Below are positions 6,087 through 9,746 of a stretch of DNA of 64,000 nt, in pieces. The translations under genes and the position numbers were made by a program. The first letter of the stretch is position 1; the number at the start of each line of letters is the position of its first letter. The DNA lies in assembly GCA_903853385.1 (NCBI GenBank), contig CAINTJ010000110.1, forward strand, positions 1-64,000. Reading direction: 5' to 3'. The notes beneath the pieces were generated by a model. The model did not search any database and was not told the origin of the DNA. It was given only the letters and a program-made list of their open reading frames with translations. Origin of the DNA: an uncultured Gammaproteobacteria bacterium (GTDB lineage: Bacteria > Pseudomonadota > Gammaproteobacteria > Pseudomonadales > Pseudohongiellaceae).

Positions 6087-6889
6087 CAGTTGCGCAGCCC
6101 TTTGCCGGTGTAAAGCAAACGCAGCGAAAACGTGAACATGACGACGGTGAGCAAGGTCAGCAGGCTCATTGACAGCTCAATACTGACATCACTGATGCCC
6201 AGGATGCCGTAGCGGAAGGCATTGACCATGTAGAAAATCGGATTGAACTGGGAAATGCTGCGTGCCAGTGGCGGCAAGGTATCCACCGAATAGAACACAC
6301 CACCCAGATAGATCAGCGGTGTCAGCACAAAGGTGGGGATGATCGAAATATCATCGAAATTACGGGCGTAAACTGCATTGATGAAACCACCCAGCGAAAA
6401 CACCACCGAACCGAGCAGCACCACAATGATGGTGATGAAGATGTTGTACATGTGCACTCCACTGAAGATCAGCGAGATCACTGAAGCGATCAGGCCCACA
6501 CACAGACCACGCGCGACGCCACCGGTGACAAAACCCAGCAAGATCACATAATTGGGCACGGGCGCCACCAGCAGTTCTTCAATGCTCTTCTGGAATTTCT
6601 GGCTGAAGAACGACGACACCACATTGGCATAGGCATTGTTGATGACCGCCATCATGATCAGGCCTGGCACGATGAATTCCATGTAGGAATAGCCACCCAT
6701 CCTGCCGATGCGTGAACCGATCAGATTGCCGAAGATGACGAAGTACAACGCAATCGTGATCACCGGTGGCACCAACGTCTGCACCCAGATGCGCAGGAAA
6801 CGCCGCACTTCCTTGATAACGATGGTTTGGTAGGCGATGAAGATATAGGAGTTGAGCATGGTCCGGGTGCGGCCGCCATAGGTATTCAT
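6086..6889 (-). CDS. yadH: ABC-2 type transporter permease, YadH-like
   Basis: The 267-residue product has about six hydrophobic segments and the ABC-2 membrane signature in the second half (NFDDISIIPTFVLTPLIYLGG, then ISQFNPIFYMVNAFRYG). It closely resembles E. coli YadH, whose cargo is not established. It begins four bases inside the end of the ATPase gene and ends one base into queF, so all three are probably translated together. With the ATPase it would form an inner-membrane exporter. Confidence 0.92.
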   Translation of the reverse strand: MNTYGGRTRTMLNSYIFIAYQTIVIKEVRRFLRIWVQTLVPPVITIALYFVIFGNLIGSRIGRMGGYSYMEFIVPGLIMMAVINNAYANVVSSFFSQKFQKSIEELLVAPVPNYVILLGFVTGGVARGLCVGLIASVISLIFSGVHMYNIFITIIVVLLGSVVFSLGGFINAVYARNFDDISIIPTFVLTPLIYLGGVFYSVDTLPPLARSISQFNPIFYMVNAFRYGILGISDVSIELSMSLLTLLTVVMFTFSLRLLYTGKGLRN

Positions 6890-7830
6890 TGCACTGCTCC
6901 TGTGGTGACAACTTCGGCCGGCTTGTGCAGCAGCGAAACAAATAATTGTTCGAGCCGGTTGGATTTGTTGCGCATGCTTTTCACGCTGATCTGCTTGTCA
7001 CTGAGCAGTTGAAACACTTCGTTGAGGTTCTGGCCCTTGTCGAGTCCGACTTCCAGCGTGTTTTCATCGACCAGTTTCACCGAGAAGTCATTGAGTATCG
7101 GGGCGGTGGTCATGTGGTTATAGGTATCCAGGACGAACAGCTCCTTGTTCAGCGTTTGCAGCAATTGTTTCATGCTGGTGTTCACGACAATTTCGCCTTT
7201 GTCGATCATCGCAATGTTGCGGCACAGGTTCTCGGCTTCTTCCAGATAGTGCGTGGTAAGGATGATGGTGGTGCCAGCCTTGTTGATCGCTTCCAGAAAC
7301 TCCCAGGTGGAGCGACGCAGTTCAATATCCACGCCGGCGGTGGGCTCATCGAGGATCAGCAGCTTGGGTTCATGCACCAACGCGCGCGCGATCAGCAGGC
7401 GCCGCTTCATGCCGCCCGACAATACCCGCGCCTGCTGGTTGTGTTTTTCCCACAGCCCCAGTTGTCTGAGATATTTTTCCGCCCGCTCTTTTGCCAGTTT
7501 GATTGGCAAACCGTAGTAACCGCCCTGGGTGACGACGATATCTATTACTTTCTCAAACAGGCTGAAATTGATTTCCTGCGGCACGACGCCAAGGTTCAAC
7601 TTGGTCTCATAAACGTGGGTGTCAACATTCTGGCCAAACACTTCGACACTGCCGGCTGTTTTACGCACCAGCGTGGCAATGATGCCGATGGTAGTGGATT
7701 TGCCGGCGCCATTGGCACCGAGCAAAGCAAAGAAATCCCCTTGTTGCACATCAAGGGAAATGCCGTTGAGGGCCTTGAAGCCGTTGGCGTAGGTTTTGTG
7801 AAGATCGCGAATAGTGATGGCTGGAATCAT
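6886..7830 (-). CDS. yadG: ABC transporter ATP-binding protein, YadG-like
   Basis: The 314-residue ATPase has Walker A GANGAGKST, signature LSGGMKRRL, Walker B KLLILDEPTAGVD and the switch histidine in LTTHYLEEAE, followed by a C-terminal extension of about 80 residues typical of exporter ATPases. I place the start at the ATG at 7830 (MIPAITIRDLHKTY), which matches the length of E. coli YadG (308); an upstream in-frame start at 7872 would add 14 residues without family support. It is the first gene of the yadG-yadH-queF-ydjA unit. The 110 bases before it contain a strong hairpin-terminator on the same strand. Confidence 0.93.
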   Translation of the reverse strand: MIPAITIRDLHKTYANGFKALNGISLDVQQGDFFALLGANGAGKSTTIGIIATLVRKTAGSVEVFGQNVDTHVYETKLNLGVVPQEINFSLFEKVIDIVVTQGGYYGLPIKLAKERAEKYLRQLGLWEKHNQQARVLSGGMKRRLLIARALVHEPKLLILDEPTAGVDIELRRSTWEFLEAINKAGTTIILTTHYLEEAENLCRNIAMIDKGEIVVNTSMKQLLQTLNKELFVLDTYNHMTTAPILNDFSVKLVDENTLEVGLDKGQNLNEVFQLLSDKQISVKSMRNKSNRLEQLFVSLLHKPAEVVTTGAVQ

Positions 7831-7934
7831 GGACTGCAAAACGGTTGTGAGTACAGCCGGCAAGCATAACAAACTTGGCTGTCAGATGGGCGTCATCTCT
7901 ATCGTTTCCCGGGTTGCGAAATCGCCACTTCATG

Positions 7935-8035
7935 ACAAAGAAAAGGCAGCTTGCGCTGCCTTTTCAGTGGCCCTGCCAGCAGGGCGCCGCCCCCTGACCC
8001 GGCCGTGTGCTCATGAGCCGGCACTTCCGTGTGCA
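7935..8035 (-). promoter_or_regulatory. Structured leader or small RNA ending in a terminator, upstream of yadG
   Basis: A plausible minus-strand promoter (-35 TTGGCG at 8067-8072, -10 TATGTT at 8043-8048, 18-base spacer) would start RNA near 8035. The next 100 bases are rich in self-complementary segments, including GCCCTGC-TG-GCAGGGC at 7970-7985. They end in a ten-pair hairpin followed by a pyrimidine-rich tail at 7941-7964. The RNA would be either a free small RNA or an attenuator leader for yadG. It does not match any riboswitch consensus I know, including preQ1 classes. Promoter and function are inferred; the hairpins are seen directly. Confidence 0.4.
7941..7964 (-). terminator. Intrinsic terminator hairpin before yadG
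   Basis: The sequence AAAAGGCAGC-loop-GCTGCCTTTT is a perfect ten-pair inverted repeat with a four-base loop; on the minus strand it is followed by CTTTG. It lies in the gap between divergently oriented genes, with yadG downstream on the minus strand and no gene ending here on either strand. It therefore appears to terminate a short RNA or to regulate yadG, rather than to end an upstream gene. Confidence 0.6.
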
Positions 8036-8120
8036 CAATCACAACATAGTCGCCACCCGGCGTTTTCGCCAAAATTCTTGTTAGAATCCCTGCCTCGTCT
8101 TCTGCCCTTGTGTAACGCCT

Positions 8121-8759
8121 GTGCTGTTGTCCGGACTTGTTGTCTTAACTGTTTGCTTGCTGGCACTGCTCGTGTGGTGGCTGCAGCGCCATCAGCGGCA
8201 AAATCGGCTGGAATCCGTGAATCGCAGCGGGGAATTGCCCCCGCTCACCACCAGCCAGTTGCCTGATTTTTCCCGCTTGCAATCACCAGTGCTCGCCCCC
8301 TCGGCACCCGGCAAGCACCCGGAACCTGGCAGTCATGCCTGGCAGGATCAGGTCAAAAAACTGAAGGACTCGGCCGAATATGAACTGGCGCTGGTGTTGT
8401 GCCAGCAACAGTTTCCCAAGGCCCAGGCCTTCCAGCAGGCGGCAATTTTGCTGCGCTTGCAGATGAAACAACTGCTGGAGCGGCAGCAGGACCTGCAGCC
8501 CTTGCTGGTGCGGCTGTACCGCTGTGCTGTGCTGGCCGACTTGTTCCGCTCCGACGCTGCTCTCAAGCCCGTCAACCCGCGTCAGGCCCTCAAGGCGCTG
8601 GCGGCCCATGATTTCCGGTACCAGGAGGTGGGACACCGCCAGCTCAAACTGCTCAGCAAGAGTGATGCCCGCCTGCTGGAGGCACGCTGGGGCGAACCGC
8701 AACAGCACCAGCATGCAGAAACCGCACTTGGATCACTTTGGCAAAACCTGTGCCGCTGA
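8121..8759 (+). CDS. Membrane-anchored protein of unknown function
   Basis: I do not recognise this 212-residue protein. It starts at a GTG with a single N-terminal transmembrane segment (LLSGLVVLTVCLLALLVWWL), then a polar Pro-rich linker. From about residue 75 it is helical and Gln/Leu-rich (QDQVKKLKDSAEYELALVLCQQQFPKA and on), most likely cytoplasmic. A TAGAAT hexamer at 8082-8087 may be its -10 box. It is followed by a 75-residue unknown gene and a dUTPase gene on the same strand. The start is supported mainly by the membrane segment beginning at once; there is no strong ribosome binding site. Confidence 0.65.
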   Translation: MLLSGLVVLTVCLLALLVWWLQRHQRQNRLESVNRSGELPPLTTSQLPDFSRLQSPVLAPSAPGKHPEPGSHAWQDQVKKLKDSAEYELALVLCQQQFPKAQAFQQAAILLRLQMKQLLERQQDLQPLLVRLYRCAVLADLFRSDAALKPVNPRQALKALAAHDFRYQEVGHRQLKLLSKSDARLLEARWGEPQQHQHAETALGSLWQNLCR

Positions 8760-8848
8760 GTTTGCGTCCGTTCTGGCATAATGCGGGGGTCTGCCGGCAG
8801 CAGGGAGCGCTGGCAGCATCGTTGGTCCCGGACCCCATTGGTAATTGA

Positions 8849-9076
8849 ATGCAGGAAGATCGTCGTCATCCGCTGGAAAATGCTGCGCTAACGCCTGAGC
8901 TGGTCAAGCGCGGCAAACAACAACTGGAAAGCGAGATCCGCATTCTGGAGTTGTGGCTGTTGCAACTGGACGAAACCCGCAAGGACAATCCGGAATCCCT
9001 GGCTGCCCGCAAAACCTATGGCGACATGCTGCTTAGCCGCAAGGACTTGCTGAGTACCTTGCAGAAACACGGCTGA
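8849..9076 (+). CDS. Small helical protein of unknown function
   Basis: This 75-residue product is not recognised. It is highly charged and probably two helices, with coiled-coil-like spacing in LVKRGKQQLESEIRILELW and a second helix around LAARKTYGDMLLSRKDLL. It ends 13 bases before the dUTPase start, so the two are probably co-transcribed. The ORF is intact and the codon use looks like that of its neighbours. Confidence 0.6.
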   Translation: MQEDRRHPLENAALTPELVKRGKQQLESEIRILELWLLQLDETRKDNPESLAARKTYGDMLLSRKDLLSTLQKHG

Positions 9077-9089
9077 TATCGGAGTTCCC

Positions 9090-9746
9090 ATGCTAAGCCA
9101 CCCCCAAGCCATCACCATGCTGAACCTGCAGGCGCAGATGAACGCCAAGGTCAATCCCGACTGGGTAAAGGCCGCCTATCCCTATCTGCGTGCTGTAATC
9201 GTGGAAGGCGCCGAAGCCATGGAACACCGCGGCTGGAAGTGGTGGAAAAAGCAGGATTGCGATCTCAAGCAACTGCAGATGGAGCTGGTGGACATCTGGC
9301 ATTTCACGCTGTCGCATATCTTGCTGGCACATGGCGGCGACCAGACCCTTTCCTTGCATGAATTGATGCAAAGCGATGCCGCCGATTCCATCAGCTTCGA
9401 TGGCATCCACTACCCTATCCAATCACTGGATCTGGTGGGCAAACTCGAACTCAACATCGGCCTGGCCGCCGCCCGCCGCATCAGCATTCCGCTGTTCGCC
9501 GCCCTGCTGCATGACTGCGAGATGGACTGGAACGAACTGTATTTGCAATACGTCGGCAAAAACGTGCTGAATTTCTTCCGCCAGGACAACGGCTACAAGA
9601 CCGGCACCTACCGCAAACAATGGGATGATGGCCGCGAAGACAATGAACATCTGGTGGAAATCATGCAGGAGCTCGACAGCGACAAGGCCGATTTCCAGCA
9701 TAGTCTCTATAGCAACCTGCAAGATCGCTATCAGCGCTCGGTTTGA
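9090..9746 (+). CDS. All-alpha dimeric dUTP diphosphatase
   Basis: The 218-residue protein belongs to the all-alpha dUTPase_2 family (related to MazG), not the trimeric Dut family. The metal-binding helices are clear: VEGAEAMEHRGWKWWK (E39, E42) and QMELVDIWHF (E65, D68). The family motif NGYKTGTYRKQWDDGREDN lies near residues 170-190. It should hydrolyse dUTP (and possibly dUDP) to dUMP, limiting uracil in DNA. Ung is encoded elsewhere in the window. The enzyme type is patchily distributed in bacteria. A Dut gene may also exist outside the window. Confidence 0.9.
   Translation: MLSHPQAITMLNLQAQMNAKVNPDWVKAAYPYLRAVIVEGAEAMEHRGWKWWKKQDCDLKQLQMELVDIWHFTLSHILLAHGGDQTLSLHELMQSDAADSISFDGIHYPIQSLDLVGKLELNIGLAAARRISIPLFAALLHDCEMDWNELYLQYVGKNVLNFFRQDNGYKTGTYRKQWDDGREDNEHLVEIMQELDSDKADFQHSLYSNLQDRYQRSV

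Follow-up and report, generated by a model that had tools for sequence, protein, structure and literature searches.

A putative small RNA gene with a CsrA-type 5' hairpin upstream of yadG in a gammaproteobacterial lineage

The minus strand upstream of the yadG-yadH-queF-ydjA genes carries promoter-like boxes, a 5' hairpin with an ANGGAX loop and a terminator hairpin. The window, which is the whole stretch of DNA analysed (64,000 nucleotides), contains one such element. We read it as an independent small RNA gene, extending from about position 8036 to 7936, with a 5' ANGGAX hairpin that would bind the CsrA protein of the genome through one or two sites, an explanation which we judge somewhat likelier to be right than wrong. 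The gene would have its own sigma-70-type promoter and intrinsic terminator, with a divergent gene on one side and, on the other, the yadG operon under a promoter of its own. We infer from the DNA sequence that the RNA is made, that the loop on its stem is bound by CsrA and that the RNA then either titrates CsrA or is held stable by it. CsrA occurs widely among gammaproteobacteria, and its best-known small RNA antagonists have many sites and answer to GacA/UvrY. An RNA with one or two sites, in a lineage for which no Csr/Rsm RNA or BarA-type matches were found, would test the minimum number of sites and would offer a way into the control of CsrA in this group.

The two promoter boxes, read from the window letters, are separated by an 18-nt spacer (Table 1). 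A consensus promoter scan of positions 7000–9500 (9/12 matches needed) called no promoter. At all 16 element loci, the window included, a script trying spacings of 16–19 nt chose 18; the −35 box has 3 to 5 of 6 matches across these loci, 3/6 being weak on its own. The terminator consists of an 11-bp stem with a 4-nt loop followed by the T-rich sequence TTTGTCAT. It has the longest stem among the four candidates of a terminator scan of 7000–9500, which overall was not above chance (4 found versus 2.7 ± 1.7 in shuffles). The 108-nt stretch from 8042 to 7935 has a better predicted fold than 199 of its 200 shuffled versions (z = −2.65). A sequence-only reading of the window had described a minus-strand promoter, about 100 structured bases ending in an intrinsic terminator, no gene ending at the hairpin and a yadG start about 110 bases beyond it. 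All of this is borne out by the boxes, the hairpin and the fold: just a mechanical 57-codon open frame (7899–8072) spans the hairpin, no convincing gene ends there, and the yadG ATG is found at 7830 on the minus strand, 110 nt past the terminator hairpin. In a search of the whole window against Rfam, seven matches reached gathering score, all of them tRNAs. For 7800–8200, six weak matches were obtained at E-values up to 10, none near its own gathering score; a 9-bit CsrC match at the element proved to be the terminator itself.

Table 1. Features of the element and its surroundings in the window.
Feature	Position	Strand	Basis or remark
−35 box TTGGCG of the putative small RNA promoter	8067..8072	minus	spacing 18 at 16/16 loci
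−10 box TATGTT of the putative small RNA promoter	8043..8048	minus	C3 T4 A5, T9 G10 invariant in 15/15 aligned sequences
Inferred small RNA, about 100 nt	7936..8036	minus	start placed about 7 nt past the −10 box, end at the T tract
Hairpin 1, GCAC-ACGGAA-GUGC, CsrA/RsmE-type ANGGAX hexaloop	8021..8034	minus	covariation; pair probability 0.13
Hairpin 2, palindrome GCTCATGAGC	8009..8018	minus	shuffle p 0.013 strict, 0.049 with G-U
GC-rich middle hairpin, differing between species	7969..8004	minus	predicted fold
Intrinsic terminator, 11-bp stem and T-rich tail	7940..7965	minus	terminator scan and reading
Extended −10-like site of yadG, TTTGTTATGCT	7863..7873	minus	counterpart at 16/16 loci
yadG, ABC transporter ATPase, first gene of yadG-yadH-queF-ydjA	6886..7830	minus	family match

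Comparison of a 276-bp region with 57 genomes (its own included) gave one other strong match, in G001, with 88% identity over 8050–7937, i.e. the RNA and its −10 box; the rest of the query gave only a second, short match close to the yadG promoter. Other matches were weak (E 3.5e-4 and above) and often covered the terminator only. When the sequence upstream of yadG was read at seven loci of genus g1 and at 23 further loci, the same promoter-plus-hairpin was found in genera g1, g2 and g3. Model R1 was run over the 137 genomes of the family, and 22 matched at E ≤ 0.1. At 29.7 bits or more it identified 16 loci in 15 of the 137 genomes, all in g1–g3 and all upstream of yadG. Fourteen of the 16 had been part of the model, and G012:C37 is the one independent recovery, since the other non-model locus, G058, hardly differs from a sequence in the model. 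With E-values limited to 1e-120, genera g1–g3 contain 19 yadG loci, with the RNA upstream of 16 and missing at three (G002, G023 and G057:C80). Among 391 genomes from the order (strict filters), nothing outside g1–g3 scored above 25.5 bits. The weaker model matches, eight family loci at 23.9 bits or less and two outside the family at 25.5 and 24.1 bits, were all read, and none of the ten was kept. In the open-licence PMC literature, among the matches listed, no such RNA was described beside yadG or in the lineage.

Some loci deserve separate mention. G057:C303 (L123), G058:C365 (L122), both of g2, and G012:C8 (L121), a second yadG locus in a g3 genome, are nearly identical to each other, and G012:C8 may be an assembly contamination. 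Contig CAMDML010000067.1 (L044), from a MAG record, is titled Klebsiella pneumoniae; its length (14132) and its RNA score of 54.8 bits are the same as those of G003:C67, from the genus of the window, and the title looks wrong. At L165 (G082:C74:5898-5945, minus strand, g5) an exact GCACAGGGATGTGC hairpin lies between two converging open frames and is possibly a moved relative of the RNA. The weak model matches L162 (G020, g4) and L182 (G042) have AGGGA-type loops.

The preserved core of the element is the promoter together with the 5' hairpin CACANGGANGUG; the middle of the RNA is not conserved, and mainly the promoter and two short hairpins are kept. Structural covariation among relatives, named as a test by the sequence-only reading, was seen in alignments of 14 (A3) and 15 (A4) sequences. 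In helix 1, 93.8% of cells are paired, three of the five pairs show changes on both sides and two never vary (the outermost pair fails in 4 of 9 cases). The corresponding figures for helix 2 are 70.9% and two of four pairs. Over the whole structure, ten cells changed on both sides, compared with 4.4 ± 1.5 in shuffles (none of 500 as high), and the covariation score was equalled by one shuffle of 500, the sequences behind this test being related. The number of pairs with a change on both sides was hardly above shuffles (36 of 500 as high) and that of further pair types not above them (356 of 500). All five covariation measures exceeded those of every slid version of the structure.

Outside the −10 region, the invariant columns of A4 are C19, A20, A22, G24, G25, A26, T29 and G30, all in hairpin 1; columns C21 and G28 deviate in G004 only. 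In the loop, A, G, G and A are thereby the same in all 15 sequences and the N positions vary. The pair closing the loop is C-G in 14 of 15 and U-A in G004, and G009 has an AGGGA pentaloop. According to passages of PMC4005645, a high-affinity CsrA/RsmE site is an ANGGAX hexaloop set directly on a stem, with N and X variable and the hexaloop adenines stacked on a closing C-G pair; AGGGA pentaloops are mentioned there as well. By sequence and covariation hairpin 1 is such a hexaloop on a stem, but the predicted fold of the window copy prefers another structure. The pattern CACANGGANGTG at 8033–8022 is the sole match in the window, with 0.20 expected for this pattern, which was picked after seeing the site. 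Fourteen RNAs were folded, two of them with lengths set by the analyst. The probability of the hexaloop-closing pair is 0.13 in the RNAs of the window and of G001, 0.01 in G027 and 0.19 for the G009 pentaloop; it is at least 0.65 in the other ten.

A second GGA hairpin is found at the place of hairpin 2 in G033 and G012:C37, both of genus g3, with probabilities of 0.99 and 0.73. Two accessible GGA hairpins are present in these copies only, of the 14 folded; the window RNA has a single GGA. That single motif, the competing fold of the window copy and an unconserved middle, which leaves nothing else to identify a partner, speak for an independent small RNA whose ANGGA hairpin would serve a different RNA-binding protein, or whose loop would pair with a target, in place of CsrA. 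This alternative appears unlikely to us: the invariant positions are those of the CsrA/RsmE consensus, with a closing C-G pair in 14 of 15 sequences, two g3 copies have a second GGA hairpin, and all of the 25 genomes tested encode CsrA. In our reading, CsrA is the probable partner of the element.

Hairpin 2 is a strict palindrome of 10–16 nt in nine of 15 sequences (p ≤ 0.021 each), and in 11 of 15 if G-U pairs are allowed (p = 0.049 in G000, 0.076 in G001 and 0.131 in G009). The palindrome is absent in the other four, G004, G033, G019 and G012:C37; G004 and G019 have neither a palindrome nor a second GGA hairpin at this place. As evidence the palindrome is weak, because the sequences are related and because any perfect hairpin with a palindromic loop counts. 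The pattern is a weak hint that the RNA pairs with itself and so offers two sites. A CsrA dimer is able to bridge a pair of sites, though one target mRNA with a single site is cited, according to parts of PMC7652899. It is conceivable, if improbable, that we are dealing with a minimal Csr RNA with one CsrA site per molecule, dimerising via hairpin 2 and so presenting two sites to each CsrA dimer, in a lineage whose searched genomes gave no RsmY/RsmZ/CsrB match over cut-off and neither FliW nor a BarA-type sensor domain.

Known components of the Csr/Rsm system were searched for with existing models. The Rfam search that the sequence-only reading had proposed yielded no family over gathering score, either at the window element or across the 34,387 bases of nine related loci. 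When all of Rfam was admitted at E up to 5, the nine loci gave three matches, all at the RNA and all from the Rsm clan (CL00106): RsmZ in L128 and RsmV in L121 and L124 (15.3 to 18.7 bits), each of which alone is no evidence because the E-values are 1.9 to 2.5. The TwoAYGGAY RNA motif had no match in these loci at the same threshold or in the window region at E up to 10. Neither RsmZ nor RsmY was found over cut-off in 25 chosen family genomes, in searches that are without a positive control because no control genome was over cut-off either. Sub-threshold RsmZ and RsmY matches were many, and for either family 8 of the 14 control genomes had them too; 12 of those in the chosen genomes were read, and most resemble ordinary terminators. 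The best RsmY match, L183 (G068:C1:2212565-2212645, minus strand, g4; hairpin at 1534), reached 29.2 bits against a cut-off of 57 and 6.2 bits with model R1. It has a CsrA-type GGACATGGATGTCC hairpin before a terminator, just past the end of a 503-codon open frame.

CsrB was not found over cut-off in 24 chosen family genomes, with one control genome over it; the lone CsrB-like match, L212 (G018:C92:49622-49800, 22.6 bits), is a tandem array of the 7-mer GCAGGAT. The sCache_4 domain of BarA-type sensors (E. coli control positive) and FliW (two controls positive) were each found in none of the 24 chosen family genomes. A GacA box, with up to one mismatch to its consensus, gave three sites in two of 15 genomes, versus two sites for the reversed control, and none in the genome of the window. 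These are absences of known models, and the lineage may still have such regulators.

Among described RNAs, RsmZ, RsmY, RsmX and RsmV of Pseudomonas are, like the element, short and equipped with ANGGA hairpins, as stated in parts of PMC4005645. They have several GGA hairpins, whereas the element has one (two in the two g3 copies), scores below their gathering scores and has no GacA box that we found. RNAs of the CsrB/CsrC and Pf1 type resemble it in carrying GGA in hairpin loops and, presumably, in having CsrA as partner, but have many sites instead of one or two; Pf1, a known Csr small RNA, has 21 GGA motifs according to passages of PMC9927453. CsrR2 of the marine gammaproteobacterium Alcanivorax dieselolei is likewise a predicted CsrA-type small RNA with its own promoter; as far as excerpts of PMC9788540 describe it, it differs in having six unpaired GGA motifs and a ferredoxin neighbour, where the element has yadG beside it and one or two GGA hairpins. 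The E. coli small RNAs McaS and GadY have been proposed to bind and antagonise CsrA (parts of PMC7652899), but they are base-pairing RNAs, and no conserved pairing region was seen in the element. With a single GGA, a loop-closing pair of probability 0.13 and 21 GGA motifs in Pf1 for comparison, the element is therefore not filed as a member of the CsrB/RsmZ class.

The proteins encoded downstream match the ABC transporter ATPase, ABC-2 permease, QueF and nitroreductase families. A site absent from the sequence-only reading, the extended −10-like TTTGTTATGCT, separately precedes yadG, and an extended −10 or TATAAT-like site is found 40–75 nt upstream of the yadG ATG at all 16 element loci; this count is a description and no blind test, because the pattern was written after reading the sequences. 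At G057:C80, which is without the RNA, a similar site, TTTTTGCTATAATGG, still precedes yadG. In genera g4, g5 and g6, a tRNA-Glu gene is located upstream of yadG in 17 of 18 sampled stretches (L189-L203, L205 and L206; G107 is without it), where g1–g3 have the RNA, and the operon therefore does without the RNA there. No tRNA-Glu gene was found in the sampled upstream stretches of G016 (g7) and G023 (g3).

These data bear on the proposal that the element is a leader of yadG, with partial read-through from the upstream promoter and control of yadG in cis by CsrA or by the 5' structure. It would suit such a leader that, at every one of the 16 loci, the −10 region of the element precedes the yadG ATG by 139–248 nt, and that neither the script nor inspection by eye found a T-tract terminator at five of them. 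The promoter-like site in front of yadG, present also at G057:C80 where the RNA is lacking, the operon of g4–g6 and the lack of a strong antiterminator in eight RNAs argue against it, and we rate a leader as still less probable than a partner other than CsrA. For the independent small RNA, promoter boxes are present at all 16 loci, and a T-tract terminator was detected by script at eight (G000, G001, G003, G010, G011, G019, G033 and G012:C37; that of G003 is weak and distant) and by eye at three more, one in G032 and two weak hairpins before T8 in G018 and G027. In G004 and G009 the hairpins are rich in GC but no T tract follows, and G057, G058 and G012:C8 have no terminator. As terminators are present in only part of the copies, the case for a small RNA would be strong just for the window and about half of the copies, and the others may read through into yadG.

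The sequence-only reading had left a choice between an attenuator, a riboswitch and a small RNA, of which the relatives support the last and disfavour the other two. For an attenuator of yadG, upstream pairing of the 5' arm of the terminator is too weak: in eight RNAs it gains 0 to 4.7 kcal/mol, compared with −11.6 to −19.4 for the terminator, with a mean upstream pairing of 0.08 to 0.59. Attenuation is disfavoured because of this weak pairing and of the promoter-like site between terminator and yadG. That queF belongs to the same gene cluster had led to the proposal of a queuosine-precursor signal. We regard a riboswitch for this or another metabolite as highly improbable. The best 80 yadG loci include 66 with all four genes (some others are cut by contig ends) and four, of genus g1, that match the RNA (L054 is weak at 15.4 bits); the RNA is absent from 62 of the 66. 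The terminator is without a strong alternative, and the conserved part, mainly promoter and two short hairpins, leaves little for an aptamer. As already noted from the letters, no preQ1 consensus is visible. The preQ1 families of Rfam gave no match either, neither over gathering score anywhere in the window nor, with E-values up to 10, within 7800–8200. The evidence does not support the queuosine lead, which is thus removed.

On the other side of the element, a plus-strand open frame begins at 8121 and diverges from it; for its protein, Pfam gave no match at E 0.001. This frame has an extended −10-like site, TGTTAGAAT at 8079–8087 (plus strand), which lies back to back with the putative small RNA promoter, and a ATTCTAGCA-like sequence recurs, by eye, in several relatives.
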